From Spartobacteria bacterium (GTDB lineage: Bacteria; Verrucomicrobiota; Verrucomicrobiia; Chthoniobacterales; UBA6821), in assembly GCA_947487385.1 (NCBI GenBank), contig CANKWU010000009.1:1-64000 (forward strand): a stretch of 64,000 nucleotides of DNA. Direction: 5' to 3'. Positions within the stretch are counted from its first letter, which is position 1. Every line of letters starts with the position of its first letter. The translations under genes were made by a program, and so were the position numbers. The notes under the pieces were generated by a model. It had not been told where the DNA came from and did not search any database. It saw nothing but the letters and a program-made list of their open reading frames with translations. Below, one piece after another: positions 5,090 to 9,800 of the stretch.

Positions 5090-8000
5090 TCAGGTGGCTT
5101 TTCCTTCCGGAATAAAAGTGACTGGGGAAATATAGTGGTTGCTGGTTGGATCTTCCGCGTCAAGCGAGACCGAGACGCGTCCGGAACGTTGGCGGACAAT
5201 GGAAAATATCACCGGTAAAATGAAGAGCGCAGCGATTGTGGAAGCGAACAAACCGCCGATGACGGCCCGACCGAGAGGCGCGATCTGTTCGCCTCCTTCG
5301 CCCAGGCCGAATGCCATCGGAAGCATTCCCGCCATCATGGCGAAGCTCGTCATAAGAATCGGCCGAAGGCGGCTCGTCGCACCCTCGATAGCGGCGGCGG
5401 GTGAAGCTGCTCCGCCGAGCCTTGAGCGCTCCGCAAAGGTCACGAGCAGGATGGCATTGGCCATTGCCACGCCAACAGCCATAATCGCCCCAATCGCCGA
5501 CTGAATGTTGACGGTCGTGCCGGTAACCCAAAGCATTGATGTCACACCGGCAAGGACCGCAGGAATTGTCGAGACGGCCACAAGCGATAGCTGCGCAGAC
5601 TGAAAGTTCGCCGTCAGCAGCAGAAAAATCACCAGAACCGCAACCAGCAATCCGGAGCGAAAGCCACCGAGGAGTTCCCGGAGAGTAGGAATCTGGCCTC
5701 GAATGTTCACCGTGGTCTTTGCCGGCAATGGGCCGATGTCCGAGATTGCCTTTTCAACAGCACGGGACACATGGCCGAGATCGGAATGGTAAATATTGGC
5801 CGTGACGGAGACAACGCGGCTCATATTGTAGCGCTCGTACTGGCCCACGGCGGCTCCCGGAGCAATCGAGGCGATATTTCGGAGCAGGACGCTACCGCTT
5901 ATTTTGCTGGTGACGGGCACGTTTTTTAAATCCTCGATTGAACGGCTTTCGGTTTGAGGGATTTGTACCTGGAGGTTGTAGCTGACGCCGGACTTCGAAT
6001 CGGCCCAGTAGTTGGCCGTCGTGAATCGGCTTGAGGTTGTGGCTGGCACCAGAGAATGGGTGACATCGCTCATACTCACGCCCATCAGTCCGGCGCGTTC
6101 GCGATCCACATTCACATCCACCGTGGGGTAATCCAACGACTGGGCAAATTGAATATCCCTCAGTTCGCGGACCTGTCTGAGTTTTTGGTAAATCTTTTCC
6201 GCATATTCACGACTGACGGCTAAGTCGGGGCCGCTTACGGCGACCTCAATGGGCGTGTTCGAGCCAAAGCTCATTACTCGATTCACGATGTCGCTTGGTT
6301 CAAAGGAAAAGAGCACTTGTGGCATCTCCACGGCAAAACGTTTGCGCAGGCGTTCTTTTAATTCCTCGGTGCGGACTGTAGCTCCATCCCTCAACCGGAT
6401 AGCAAGCCAACCCTCCTCAGGCCCACCGTTCCAGAGATGAATAAAGTTGATTGGGTAATTAGACCCGTGCACGCCGACAAGTCCGATGGTGAGCGCAATG
6501 TTCTCCTTGCCTACTTCATCTGCAATGATGTCGAGCGCCTGTTTTGCATAAATTTCGGTGTTTTGCACCTGCGTTCCGGAGGGCGCGCGGAGGCGCATTG
6601 CGAATTGGCCCGTGTCGGCGTGCGGAAAGATTTCAAGGCCCAGTTGGCTTCCAAAGCTGACGATCACAAGAGCGGTTACTCCAAGATAAGAACCCAACAG
6701 CACCCACCGAAGCCGCATGGATTGCTTTAAAAGTTGCCCATAGCGTGCACGCAGGCGTGCATAAAATGAGGCATCTTGGATTTCCCCCTCATGCCCGCGC
6801 ATGAACCAAATGGACAGGATGGGTACCAGGGTGCTGGAAAGTATGTAGGAGGCCGCCATGGAAAAGCCGACTGACAGAGCCAGCGGCGTAAAGAGAGCCT
6901 TGGCGGGACCGGTCATGAACAACGCCGGAAGAAAGACTGCCAGAATGCAGAGCATGGCAAGGAATCTGGGGAGGGTTGTCTCTCGGGTTGCGTTGAGGAC
7001 CGACAGGCTAAGGGGAGTTCCTTTGGCCAGATAGGAATGAATGTTTTCGACGGTCACCGTGGCTTCATCGATCAGGATGCCTACGGCCAACGCCAGGCCG
7101 CCAAGCGTCATAATGTTCACGTTCTGTCCGGTGAGCCAGAGTGCGAAACAGGCAGCAAGTAGCGATATTGGAATATTAATCACAACAATCAAGGCGGACC
7201 GCCAATCGCGCAGAAAGAGGAGCACCATGAGCCCCGTGAGAACAGCCCCGATTAGGCCTTCCTGGACGAGCGAGTGAATGGAATGCAGAACAACTGGCGT
7301 CTGGTCGAATTCAAAACTGACCTTAACGTCCTCAGGGAGTACGCTTTGGAATTTCGCAATGTTCTTTTTGACGAGATCGACGACGGCTAGGGTGGAGGCA
7401 TCCGCGCGTTTTGTTACAGGCATATAAACAGTGCGCTTTCCGTTCACCAATGCGTAGGAAGTAATGATGTCGGAGGTATCCTGTACTTTGGCCAGATCGC
7501 GGAGCAGGACCGCGCCGGTAACACTGGTCTTGATCGTCAGGCTCTCAAGATCCTTGATGTTTTTGGCCACAGCATTCATGGACACGATAGGGTATTGATC
7601 TCCTAGATTAATGTTGCCTGACGGGCTGATTAGATTGGCCTCGGAAATCGCTTGGACAATGGAATCCGGCGAAAGGTTATAGGAACGCATCTGTTCGGGA
7701 TTGATATTGATGACAATCGTGCGGGCGCTGCCTCCAAATGGGGGAGGTGCCGAGACGCCTGGTAACGTCGCAAAGACTGGCCTCACAAGGTTTAGCGCCG
7801 CATCTTGGATTTGGCCGACTGTCCGTTCAGGGTTGTCACTCGAGAAAACGAGATAGCCGACCGGCACGCTTCCCGCATCAAATCTCGTGATGAAAGGCCC
7901 GGGGGTTCCAGCTGGCATGAATGCGCGGGCGCGGTTCACGTAGGCTACGGTCTCAGCCATTGCGCTCGACATGTCAGTGCCGGGGTGGAATTGGAGCTTC

Positions 8001-8272
8001 ATGATGGAAGCTCCCTGGATTGATTTCGATTCCACGTGTTCGATGCCGGTGATGTAGAGGAAGTGATATTCGTAATAGAAGGTGAAATAGCCCTCCATTT
8101 GCGCCGGATCCATACCACCGTAGGGTTGAGCAACGTAAATTGTGGGAACTCCCAGGGATGGAAAGATGTCCCGTGTCATCCGTTGAATGGAAAGAAAGCC
8201 CCCCAGAATAATCGCTATGACGAGAACAATAACCGTCAATGGCCGTCGTAATGATAGGGTTACAATGTTCAT
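5090..8272 (-). CDS. RND efflux pump permease (AcrB/HAE1-like subfamily)
   Basis: A 1060-residue inner-membrane proton-driven exporter with twelve predicted helices and two large periplasmic loops. It begins with the family N-terminus MNIVTLSLRRPLTVIVLVIA. In TM4 the proton-relay pair of AcrB (D407/D408) is D402/E403 here (GILIDEATVTVEN). In TM10 the AcrB lysine K940 is replaced by Ala at about residue 938 (GVAMANAILLV). The DE pair and missing lysine point to a distinct RND branch, so substrates cannot be guessed from AcrB. The start codon overlaps the purN stop (ATGA), and adaptor and TolC genes follow directly. Confidence 0.9.
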   Translation of the reverse strand: MNIVTLSLRRPLTVIVLVIAIILGGFLSIQRMTRDIFPSLGVPTIYVAQPYGGMDPAQMEGYFTFYYEYHFLYITGIEHVESKSIQGASIMKLQFHPGTDMSSAMAETVAYVNRARAFMPAGTPGPFITRFDAGSVPVGYLVFSSDNPERTVGQIQDAALNLVRPVFATLPGVSAPPPFGGSARTIVININPEQMRSYNLSPDSIVQAISEANLISPSGNINLGDQYPIVSMNAVAKNIKDLESLTIKTSVTGAVLLRDLAKVQDTSDIITSYALVNGKRTVYMPVTKRADASTLAVVDLVKKNIAKFQSVLPEDVKVSFEFDQTPVVLHSIHSLVQEGLIGAVLTGLMVLLFLRDWRSALIVVINIPISLLAACFALWLTGQNVNIMTLGGLALAVGILIDEATVTVENIHSYLAKGTPLSLSVLNATRETTLPRFLAMLCILAVFLPALFMTGPAKALFTPLALSVGFSMAASYILSSTLVPILSIWFMRGHEGEIQDASFYARLRARYGQLLKQSMRLRWVLLGSYLGVTALVIVSFGSQLGLEIFPHADTGQFAMRLRAPSGTQVQNTEIYAKQALDIIADEVGKENIALTIGLVGVHGSNYPINFIHLWNGGPEEGWLAIRLRDGATVRTEELKERLRKRFAVEMPQVLFSFEPSDIVNRVMSFGSNTPIEVAVSGPDLAVSREYAEKIYQKLRQVRELRDIQFAQSLDYPTVDVNVDRERAGLMGVSMSDVTHSLVPATTSSRFTTANYWADSKSGVSYNLQVQIPQTESRSIEDLKNVPVTSKISGSVLLRNIASIAPGAAVGQYERYNMSRVVSVTANIYHSDLGHVSRAVEKAISDIGPLPAKTTVNIRGQIPTLRELLGGFRSGLLVAVLVIFLLLTANFQSAQLSLVAVSTIPAVLAGVTSMLWVTGTTVNIQSAIGAIMAVGVAMANAILLVTFAERSRLGGAASPAAAIEGATSRLRPILMTSFAMMAGMLPMAFGLGEGGEQIAPLGRAVIGGLFASTIAALFILPVIFSIVRQRSGRVSVSLDAEDPTSNHYISPVTFIPEGKAT

Positions 8273-8868
8273 TTTGGAGAAGGAGTTTTCCCTCGAATTG
8301 TCCCTGCGAATTCGCGGACGATACGAGGATAGAGCTCGTGCTCAGCCACCTGGATCCGAGCATGCAGCGACTCGGCGGTATCACCAGGAAGAACGGGAAC
8401 GTAGCTTTGACCCAAAATCGCGCCCGTATCGACTCCGGCATCGACGAGATGGACAGTGCAACCGGCTTCGGACACGCCTGCCTCGAAGGCCTGACGCCAG
8501 GCCTCCAGTCCTCGGAAGGCAGGCAGGAGCGATGGATGGATATTCAGGATACGGCCAGGGAAGGCCTGCAGAAGGGGGTCCTTGATGACCCGCATGAATC
8601 CCGCCAGCACGACGAAATCAACCTTGGCCTCCCGGAGTAAGCGGACAATTTCTTCCTCTGCTTCGGATGACATCTTCGTCCGGAAGGAACCCGGAGCGAC
8701 AAAGTGACAGGGGATTTCAAACTCCCGGGCCAGATTCAGAATGCCCGCATGCTCTACATCGGAGAGGACGATCACTGGGTGAGCACCCAAGGTTCCGAAC
8801 TGAAAAGCCTCCGCTAGGGCTCTGAAGTTGGATCCTTTTCCCGATCCAAGCACCCCGAAACGGAGCAT
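8269..8868 (-). CDS. purN: Phosphoribosylglycinamide formyltransferase, PurN type
   Basis: A 199-residue GART that transfers formyl from 10-formyl-THF to GAR, the third step of purine synthesis. It opens with LRFGVLGSGKGSNFRAL, the phosphate-binding loop of the family. The catalytic Asn-His motif is seen in ILNIHPSLLPAFRG, and the catalytic Asp in GCTVHLVDAGVDTGAIL. The ATG at 8868 gives the conserved N-terminus; a longer in-frame extension to 8988 would run into the terminator and rpmA. The stop overlaps the RND pump start by ATGA, an unusual partner for a purine gene. A terminator separates it from rpmA upstream. Confidence 0.92.
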   Translation of the reverse strand: MLRFGVLGSGKGSNFRALAEAFQFGTLGAHPVIVLSDVEHAGILNLAREFEIPCHFVAPGSFRTKMSSEAEEEIVRLLREAKVDFVVLAGFMRVIKDPLLQAFPGRILNIHPSLLPAFRGLEAWRQAFEAGVSEAGCTVHLVDAGVDTGAILGQSYVPVLPGDTAESLHARIQVAEHELYPRIVREFAGTIRGKTPSPK

Positions 8869-8890
8869 GGGAGATTCCCGGGAGGCCGAT

Positions 8891-8924
8891 AAAACAGAAA
8901 CCCCCGGCATGTGAGTGCCGAGGG
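8891..8924 (-). terminator. Rho-independent terminator after rpmA
   Basis: Nine-base-pair stem (8901-8909 with 8916-8924) and six-base loop. On the minus strand the stem is followed by TTTCTGTTTT. It ends the rplU-rpmA transcript just before purN. Confidence 0.85.
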
Positions 8925-8959
8925 TGTTCATCCCTTCTTGATGGGAAGAGAAGAGAGCC

Positions 8960-9229
8960 TTACTTGGCGGAAGCCTCTGCCGAAACAACAGGATCGACGT
9001 TCACGCGGCGACCGGCCTGATCGAAGCGTACCTTGCCCTCGATGAGAGACCAGATCGTGTAGTCACGTCCAAGACCGACATTGCGGCCGGGAACAAATTT
9101 GGTTCCACGCTGGCGGATGATGATATTGCCAGCGATAACGGTCTGATCACCGAATTTCTTCACACCGAGGCGTTTGCTTTCGCTATCGCGTCCATTCTTG
9201 ACGCTTCCCTGTCCTTTTTTATGTGCCAT
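8960..9229 (-). CDS. rpmA: 50S ribosomal protein L27
   Basis: An 89-residue L27, the large-subunit protein reaching the peptidyl transferase centre. It starts [22 protein letters not shown], with the typical basic N-terminal tail and no cleaved extension, followed by [27 protein letters not shown]-type family sequence. It lies 50 bases downstream of rplU, the usual order. A strong terminator follows. No Shine-Dalgarno precedes the ATG. Confidence 0.97.
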
Positions 9230-9279
9230 GGCGGTAGGTGGGTTGGATTAAAGGTTTGGTTGAAAAAAGTGACGAATGA

Positions 9280-9594
9280 TTAGGCAGAGATCTTGGTGAT
9301 CTTGAGCTCGGTGAGCTGTCGGCGATGACCGACGGTGCGGTGATAACCTTTGCGGCGTTTGAACTTGAAGGCGATTACCTTCTCATCCTTGTACTGATCG
9401 ACGACCTCGGCCTGGACCGTGGCTCCGGATACGTGCGGCGTGCCAAGGGTGACCTTGTCGCCGTTCACGATGAGGAGGACATCGCTGAAAGTGGTCTCTT
9501 TGCCGGTTTCGACAGCGAGCTTCTCGACACTCAGGACGTCTCCCTCGGAGACGCGGTACTGCTTGCCGCCGGTTTGGATGATTGCGTAGGACAT
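9280..9594 (-). CDS. rplU: 50S ribosomal protein L21
   Basis: A 104-residue L21, a 23S rRNA-binding protein. The ATG at 9594 gives the conserved start MSYAIIQTGGKQYRVSEGD, and the C-terminus keeps FKFKRRKGYHRTVGHRR. A longer frame to 9687 adds residues that do not resemble L21. It forms the standard rplU-rpmA pair. The bases before the start are pyrimidine-rich with no Shine-Dalgarno. Confidence 0.97.
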   Translation of the reverse strand: MSYAIIQTGGKQYRVSEGDVLSVEKLAVETGKETTFSDVLLIVNGDKVTLGTPHVSGATVQAEVVDQYKDEKVIAFKFKRRKGYHRTVGHRRQLTELKITKISA

Positions 9595-9716: not shown

Positions 9717-9800
9717 GCTCGGGTGGTGAAATGGCAGACACGTGCGTTTAAGGGGCGCATGCCGAAAGGCATGAGGGTTCGAGTCCCTCCCCGAGCACCA
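9717..9800 (+). tRNA. tRNA-Leu, anticodon AAG, CCA encoded
   Basis: Class II tRNA of 84 bases. The acceptor stem GCTCGGG pairs fully with CCCGAGC (9790-9796), followed by A and an encoded CCA. The anticodon stem TGCGT/GCGCA (9743-9747/9755-9759) encloses the loop TTAAGGG, which puts AAG at 9750-9752. The long variable arm TGCCGAAAGGCA (9760-9771) and T arm GAGGG-TTCGAGT-CCCTC fit leucine identity. A34 is rare in bacterial leucine tRNAs, where GAG is usual; reading CUC would need deamination to inosine. Confidence 0.93.

Follow-up and report, generated by a model that had tools for sequence, protein, structure and literature searches.

A tRNA-Leu with anticodon AAG replaces tRNA-Leu(GAG) in most members of a freshwater family of Chthoniobacterales and probably decodes CUU and CUC through inosine

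The window (the whole 64-kb stretch of DNA that was analysed) came from a draft genome assembly (2.05 Mb, 48 contigs, 94.5% complete) of a member of family f1 of the Chthoniobacterales, Verrucomicrobiota, a freshwater group. Its sole tRNA gene, at 9717–9800 bp on the forward strand, was called by ARAGORN as an 84-nt class II tRNA-Leu with an encoded CCA end and anticodon AAG (9750–9752 bp, forward strand; position 34 is at 9750, an A in the window). The same gene was recovered in an RF00005 search of the genome with 46.2 bits (cut-off 29) and was matched by orthologs in relatives. A fast Rfam scan of the window at gathering thresholds listed no tRNA, despite that score in the genome search. 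In the ARAGORN drawing the arms were paired throughout, including G-U pairs at 26:44 and 31:39, and the anticodon loop UUAAGGG was flanked by the stems UGCGU and GCGCA, with U31 opposite G39. The first-pass annotation had described a tRNA-Leu with anticodon AAG and a fully paired cloverleaf; both descriptions were confirmed, the two G-U pairs being counted as paired. The gene was an intact class II tRNA-Leu gene with A34.

A sigma-70-like promoter (TTGCCC-16-TATGAT, 9673–9700 bp, forward strand) ended 16 bases before the tRNA gene, and two promoter-like sites were found in the region compared with 0.2 expected in shuffles. A similar element was seen by eye upstream of the gene in six of seven other genomes inspected from g1, the genus of the host; in the remaining one (G002) the hexamers were too close together. 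Directly after the CCA end an eight-pair hairpin (9802–9820 bp, forward strand) was read by eye, which had no T run and so was not called a terminator. A hairpin with altered letters was visible at the same place in four g1 genomes with AAG (G003, G004, G008 and G012) and was not evident in three g1 genomes with GAG that were inspected in the same way. The divergent neighbour of the tRNA gene was rplU, encoding 50S ribosomal protein L21 (9280–9594 bp, reverse strand; TIGR00061), which served as a marker of the orthologous locus, and the downstream neighbour (9897–10595 bp, reverse strand) encoded a 3′-5′ exonuclease of the DnaQ kind, with matches below curated cut-offs.

Of 58 genomes searched for the tRNA, 52 gave a match (in G054 the gene was cut by a contig end, and the anticodon was taken from its sequence). 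Among the 19 readable orthologs of family f1, 15 carried AAG, of which 11 were in g1 (G000, G001, G003, G004, G005, G008, G009, G010, G012, G013 and G015) and four in g2 (G016, G017, G018 and G020). The four with GAG (G002, G006, G007 and G014) all belonged to g1, and three further members of the family (G011, G019 and G021) gave no match. All 33 readable orthologs from the other families of the order carried GAG, while three genomes there were without a match. Besides the host genome, the identical 84 nt occurred in 11 family genomes, with matches of 99% over 84 nt in one more and over 81 nt in another. Comparing the anticodon in relatives had been proposed in the first-pass annotation, which left a choice between lineage decoding and a recent base change; the first of these holds, AAG being shared by two genera, and the second fails as a description of a lone change. 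Across the class, the pattern of the AAG tRNA was present in 10 of 384 genomes, all from f1, and the same pattern with G34 in 106 of 384; the rest matched neither, so the pattern covers part of the class.

The rplU gene adjoined the tRNA gene at 18 of the 19 f1 loci (14/15 with AAG, the exception being G010, and 4/4 with GAG), and at four of 11 loci examined from other families. Since rplU lies beside both forms, AAG and GAG are alleles of one locus. The host gene is thus orthologous to tRNA-Leu(GAG) of other Chthoniobacterales, which stands beside rplU in four genomes of the same genus. Compared with the GAG tRNA of g1, the host tRNA differed at 6 of 84 positions, namely A34 and five more (the 28:42 pair, a T-stem pair and a T-loop base).

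A genome-wide search for a separate tRNA-Leu(GAG), also suggested beforehand, detected none in the host draft or in any other of the 15 AAG genomes of the family, all of which were drafts; in these genomes AAG replaces GAG. The same search was permissive: tRNAs with UAG or CAG at 74–77% identity surfaced in several genomes. In the host assembly 38 tRNA hits were obtained, with a leucine set of AAG, UAG, CAG, CAA and a short, odd UAA. Neither tRNA-Leu(GAG) nor Gly-GCC, Ile-GAT or Val-GAC was among these 38 hits. Because the host set has such gaps, a missing GAG there alone is weak evidence, and it is the family-wide pattern that provides real evidence.

Codon use was heavy in CUC. In 42 open reading frames of the window (1929 leucine codons), CUC made up 31% and CUU 25%. 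In RpoB and RpoC, CUC was the top leucine codon throughout the 11 AAG genomes of g1 (36–54%), and CUU was commoner than CUC in three AAG genomes of the low-GC genus g2. The ratio CUC/(CUC+CUU) was compared with the average over the Val, Ala, Thr and Pro boxes, after 80 frames with an unusual amino-acid composition had been removed. The slope was 0.43 for 13 AAG genomes, where it hinged on three members of a single low-GC genus, and 0.87 for nine GAG genomes, with few independent clades in the comparison. In the three genomes of low-GC g2 the CUC share (0.41–0.49) was above that of the other boxes (0.30–0.33). In GC-rich g1 it was below the other boxes in AAG and GAG genomes alike, the mean gap being about −0.10 with AAG versus −0.07 with GAG, a small contrast, and in three lower-GC GAG genomes (G028, G038 and G046) it was within 0.03 of the other boxes. 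As tRNA-Leu(IAG) is described as equalising CUU and CUC (PMC13249217), a pull towards equality of the two codons, in the few clades compared, fits the direction expected if I34 equalises them.

The host encoded tRNA-Arg(ACG) and an intact tadA (NF008113, 159.5 bits, cut-off 150) with the motifs HAE and PCPMC (PCxxC). A tadA gene was located in 12 of the 15 AAG genomes of the family, two of these copies being cut at contig ends, and was not found in the AAG drafts G005, G009 and G016. A second TadA-like deaminase was encoded elsewhere in the host assembly (contig C39:4544–4861, L040) with 67.6 bits, below the family cut-off.

We propose that the gene is a functional chromosomal tRNA-Leu in which G34 was changed to A34 within f1, that TadA very likely deaminates A34 to I34, and that the IAG anticodon reads CUU and CUC; we estimate the probability of this reading at about 0.83. 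In outline, G34 of tRNA-Leu would have mutated to A, and TadA, already required for tRNA-Arg(ACG), would deaminate the new A34 to I34 despite A35, its specificity having presumably been broadened to accept A35 beside the C35 of tRNA-Arg(ACG). The tRNA-Leu(IAG) so formed would then decode CUU and CUC; alongside tRNA-Leu(UAG) it could also read CUA. A broadened TadA would be a likely corollary of lineage decoding. Such an enzyme is known, as the TadA of S. pyogenes deaminates tRNA-Leu(AAG) and that of E. coli does not, with I34 on this tRNA demonstrated in S. pyogenes and also reported from O. oeni (PMC11472039). The earlier remark that confines A34 mostly to tRNA-Arg(ACG) holds as a rule, but it overlooks these known cases in Lactobacillales.

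Alternatively, A34 might stay unmodified, so that CUU would be read well and CUC weakly, much of the CUC being carried by tRNA-Leu(UAG) through extended wobble. Unmodified A34 tRNAs are reported from some bacteria (PMC8266599), modest pairing of unmodified A with C is described (PMC11066159), and tRNA-Leu(UAG) is present in the host genome. We nevertheless consider this unlikely. Plain A34 reads CUC poorly and CUC is the leading leucine codon of RpoB and RpoC in every AAG genome of g1, which together make inosine produced by TadA likely; in g2, moreover, CUC:CUU exceeds the C:U ratio of the other boxes, the opposite of the effect that a poor reader of CUC would have.

It is far less probable that a GAG tRNA was missed in the drafts and that AAG is an accessory or decaying copy. 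All the family genomes are indeed drafts, and the host assembly is without several standard tRNAs, but a GAG match was obtained in none of the 15 AAG genomes, and the AAG gene occupies the very locus that holds GAG in relatives. It is also intact, nearly invariant and preceded by a promoter-like element; for a gene in this state at the rplU locus, a pseudogene is unlikely. An error of sequencing or assembly at 9750, or a chance occurrence, can be ruled out for practical purposes by the eleven other family genomes with the identical 84 nt, A34 included, and nothing was found in favour of it.

The history of the anticodon was followed on a second, quick tree built from RpoB, RpoC, L21, PurN and AroG (26 rows, with G016 excluded for its long branch). 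On this tree g1 and g2 were separate and the four GAG genomes were nested among the AAG genomes of g1, so that at least three changes were needed. A single GAG clade, with the four held together, was not rejected (p-AU 0.285), and an earlier tree from fewer genes did not resolve the backbone of g1. The GAG tRNA of g1 matched the GAG tRNA of a different family, f10, at every one of 82 nt, which makes an exchange or replacement of alleles possible. The distribution may be explained by repeated change, by allele exchange, or by a single gain and a single later replacement.

This is a known kind of decoding in a new lineage, the Verrucomicrobiota. It resembles the tRNA-Leu(AAG), read as IAG, of Streptococcus, Lactobacillaceae and Oenococcus (PMC13249217 and PMC11472039) in its class II structure, in the use of AAG for GAG and in the presence of tadA. 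It differs from those in belonging to Verrucomicrobiota, in occurring in a GC-rich genus (g1) where CUC rather than UUA dominates, in the presence of both anticodons in one genus, and in that I34 is here a prediction. With the general bacterial conversion of tRNA-Arg(ACG) to ICG by TadA it would share the enzyme family and the expected wobble chemistry, but it concerns a leucine tRNA with A rather than C at position 35. Whether such recoding reaches beyond Lactobacillales is asked in PMC13249217, and PMC11472039 raises the question of how TadA comes to accept an additional tRNA. With both anticodons at one locus, g1 offers a natural comparison in which the broadening of TadA becomes testable.

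A scan of genome contigs gave 52 stretches, in 48 of which ARAGORN called a complete tRNA-Leu(AAG); in the other four the match lay near an end of the stretch. Thirteen stretches were from the present family, and others were labelled Nitrospirota, Nitrospinota, Bacillota (mostly Clostridia), Firestonebacteria and Desantisbacteria. Further metagenome-assembled genomes (MAGs) with tRNA-Leu(AAG) were labelled Elusimicrobiota, Fibrobacterota, Myxococcota, Pseudomonadota or merely "bacterium". One identical tRNA-Leu(AAG) was shared by the MAGs labelled Pseudomonadota, Myxococcota and delta proteobacterium. The Nitrospinota tRNA was that of three Nitrospirales MAGs, and its genome alone showed GAG as well, a result expected of misbinning. 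Given the shared tRNAs and the fallibility of labels and binning, nine other phyla are labelled, of which about seven are safer. When a pattern allowing A or G at position 34 was applied to 36 of these genomes, 35 yielded AAG alone and one yielded both forms, a count that GAG tRNAs with other loops would escape. The contig scan demanded one form of the loop, so the true spread is likely wider than counted. In PMC13249217, tRNA-Leu(AAG) is placed almost entirely in Bacilli, with Mycoplasma and Prochlorococcus named as hints beyond Lactobacillales; the spread among MAGs is wider than in that survey. Among the titles and abstract openings listed by literature searches, none mentioned tRNA-Leu(AAG) for Verrucomicrobiota, and older surveys could list some of the phyla.

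TadA sequences were aligned across the order. Column 109 (numbering of the host protein) corresponded in the alignment to a His of the E. coli enzyme, which we take to be position 96. Among the AAG genomes of the order in which the region was present, 9 of 11 had Asn at this column and two had His (G010 and G015), compared with His in 27, Leu in six and Asn in none of 33 GAG genomes; Asn was also present in three f1 genomes without a located tRNA. The association of this column with AAG comprised 2–3 independent pairs only, too few for significance. When all columns were checked within the family, nine others had an AAG-majority residue missing from the four GAG members, and columns 90, 122 and 152 split AAG from GAG about as well as 109 did, in nine or ten AAG genomes. 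The AAG-majority residues of these three columns occurred in 7, 15 and 13, respectively, of 29 GAG genomes outside the family, and Asn at column 109 in 0 of 29. Several columns thus divide AAG members from GAG members, so the case is proven for no single residue, and the odds that column 109 is a switch are lowered. The two AAG genomes with His indicate either that Asn at this column is dispensable or that the work is done by another change.

Outside Verrucomicrobiota, 34 AAG genomes were searched for TadA, with E-values up to 1e-20 and only eight genomes over the curated cut-off. In 30 of them the aligned residue, read by eye, was Leu (9), Asn (6), Gln (5), Ser (5), Ala (2), Gly (2), Phe (1) or His (0); this set held AAG genomes only. 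Two solved TadA structures among the best matches, 7cph and 2b3j, had Leu or Met at that column. TadA base-editor variants carry H96N (PMC11369719 and PMC12442613); here a natural Asn is found at the residue aligned with that His. In the base editors, H96N belongs to a set of engineered changes that act on DNA, whereas here it is an association in one family. We advance only tentatively, and with some doubt, the idea that bacterial TadA came to accept leucine tRNA on many independent occasions, with the residue aligned with His96 of E. coli as one switch. Under this idea, the change of G34 to A would go with Asn in Verrucomicrobiota, and Asn occurs in several AAG Clostridia and Gln in AAG Nitrospirales. 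If it were true, nature and directed evolution would have reached the same route to a looser choice of substrate.

Leucine tRNAs are of class II. The odd member of the host set, 73 nt long with anticodon UAA, had a short variable loop and so a class I shape (contig C2:100486–100558; L028:1501–1573). It was 99–100% identical in 12 of 16 g1 genomes, and eight of the 12 loci shared an upstream gene that was judged by eye to encode a cytochrome bd oxidase subunit. In g2 and other families, ARAGORN called 17 of 18 matching loci as class II tRNA-Leu(UAA) of 83–88 nt and one as Leu(CAA). A class II UAA tRNA was absent among the 38 hits of the host draft, which is without other tRNAs too. The short gene looks like an additional tRNA or a bacterial tRNA-Leu stripped of its long arm; no comparable short tRNA-Leu was met in the titles and abstract openings listed by literature searches. 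Reassignment of UUA was considered and showed no sign, with 73% of the weight of 11 UUA codons in RpoB and RpoC of g1 falling at leucine columns.

On contig C19 of G003 (L351:1670–1707, 7937–9199 and 9245–9317), the first 38 nt of the short UAA tRNA were repeated 7.5 kb away, and a gene that by eye resembled a tyrosine recombinase adjoined the intact copy. The arrangement may reflect an integrative element whose site is the 5′ half of the tRNA, as far as the anticodon loop. Half copies of the short UAA tRNA were also present in G001 and G013.
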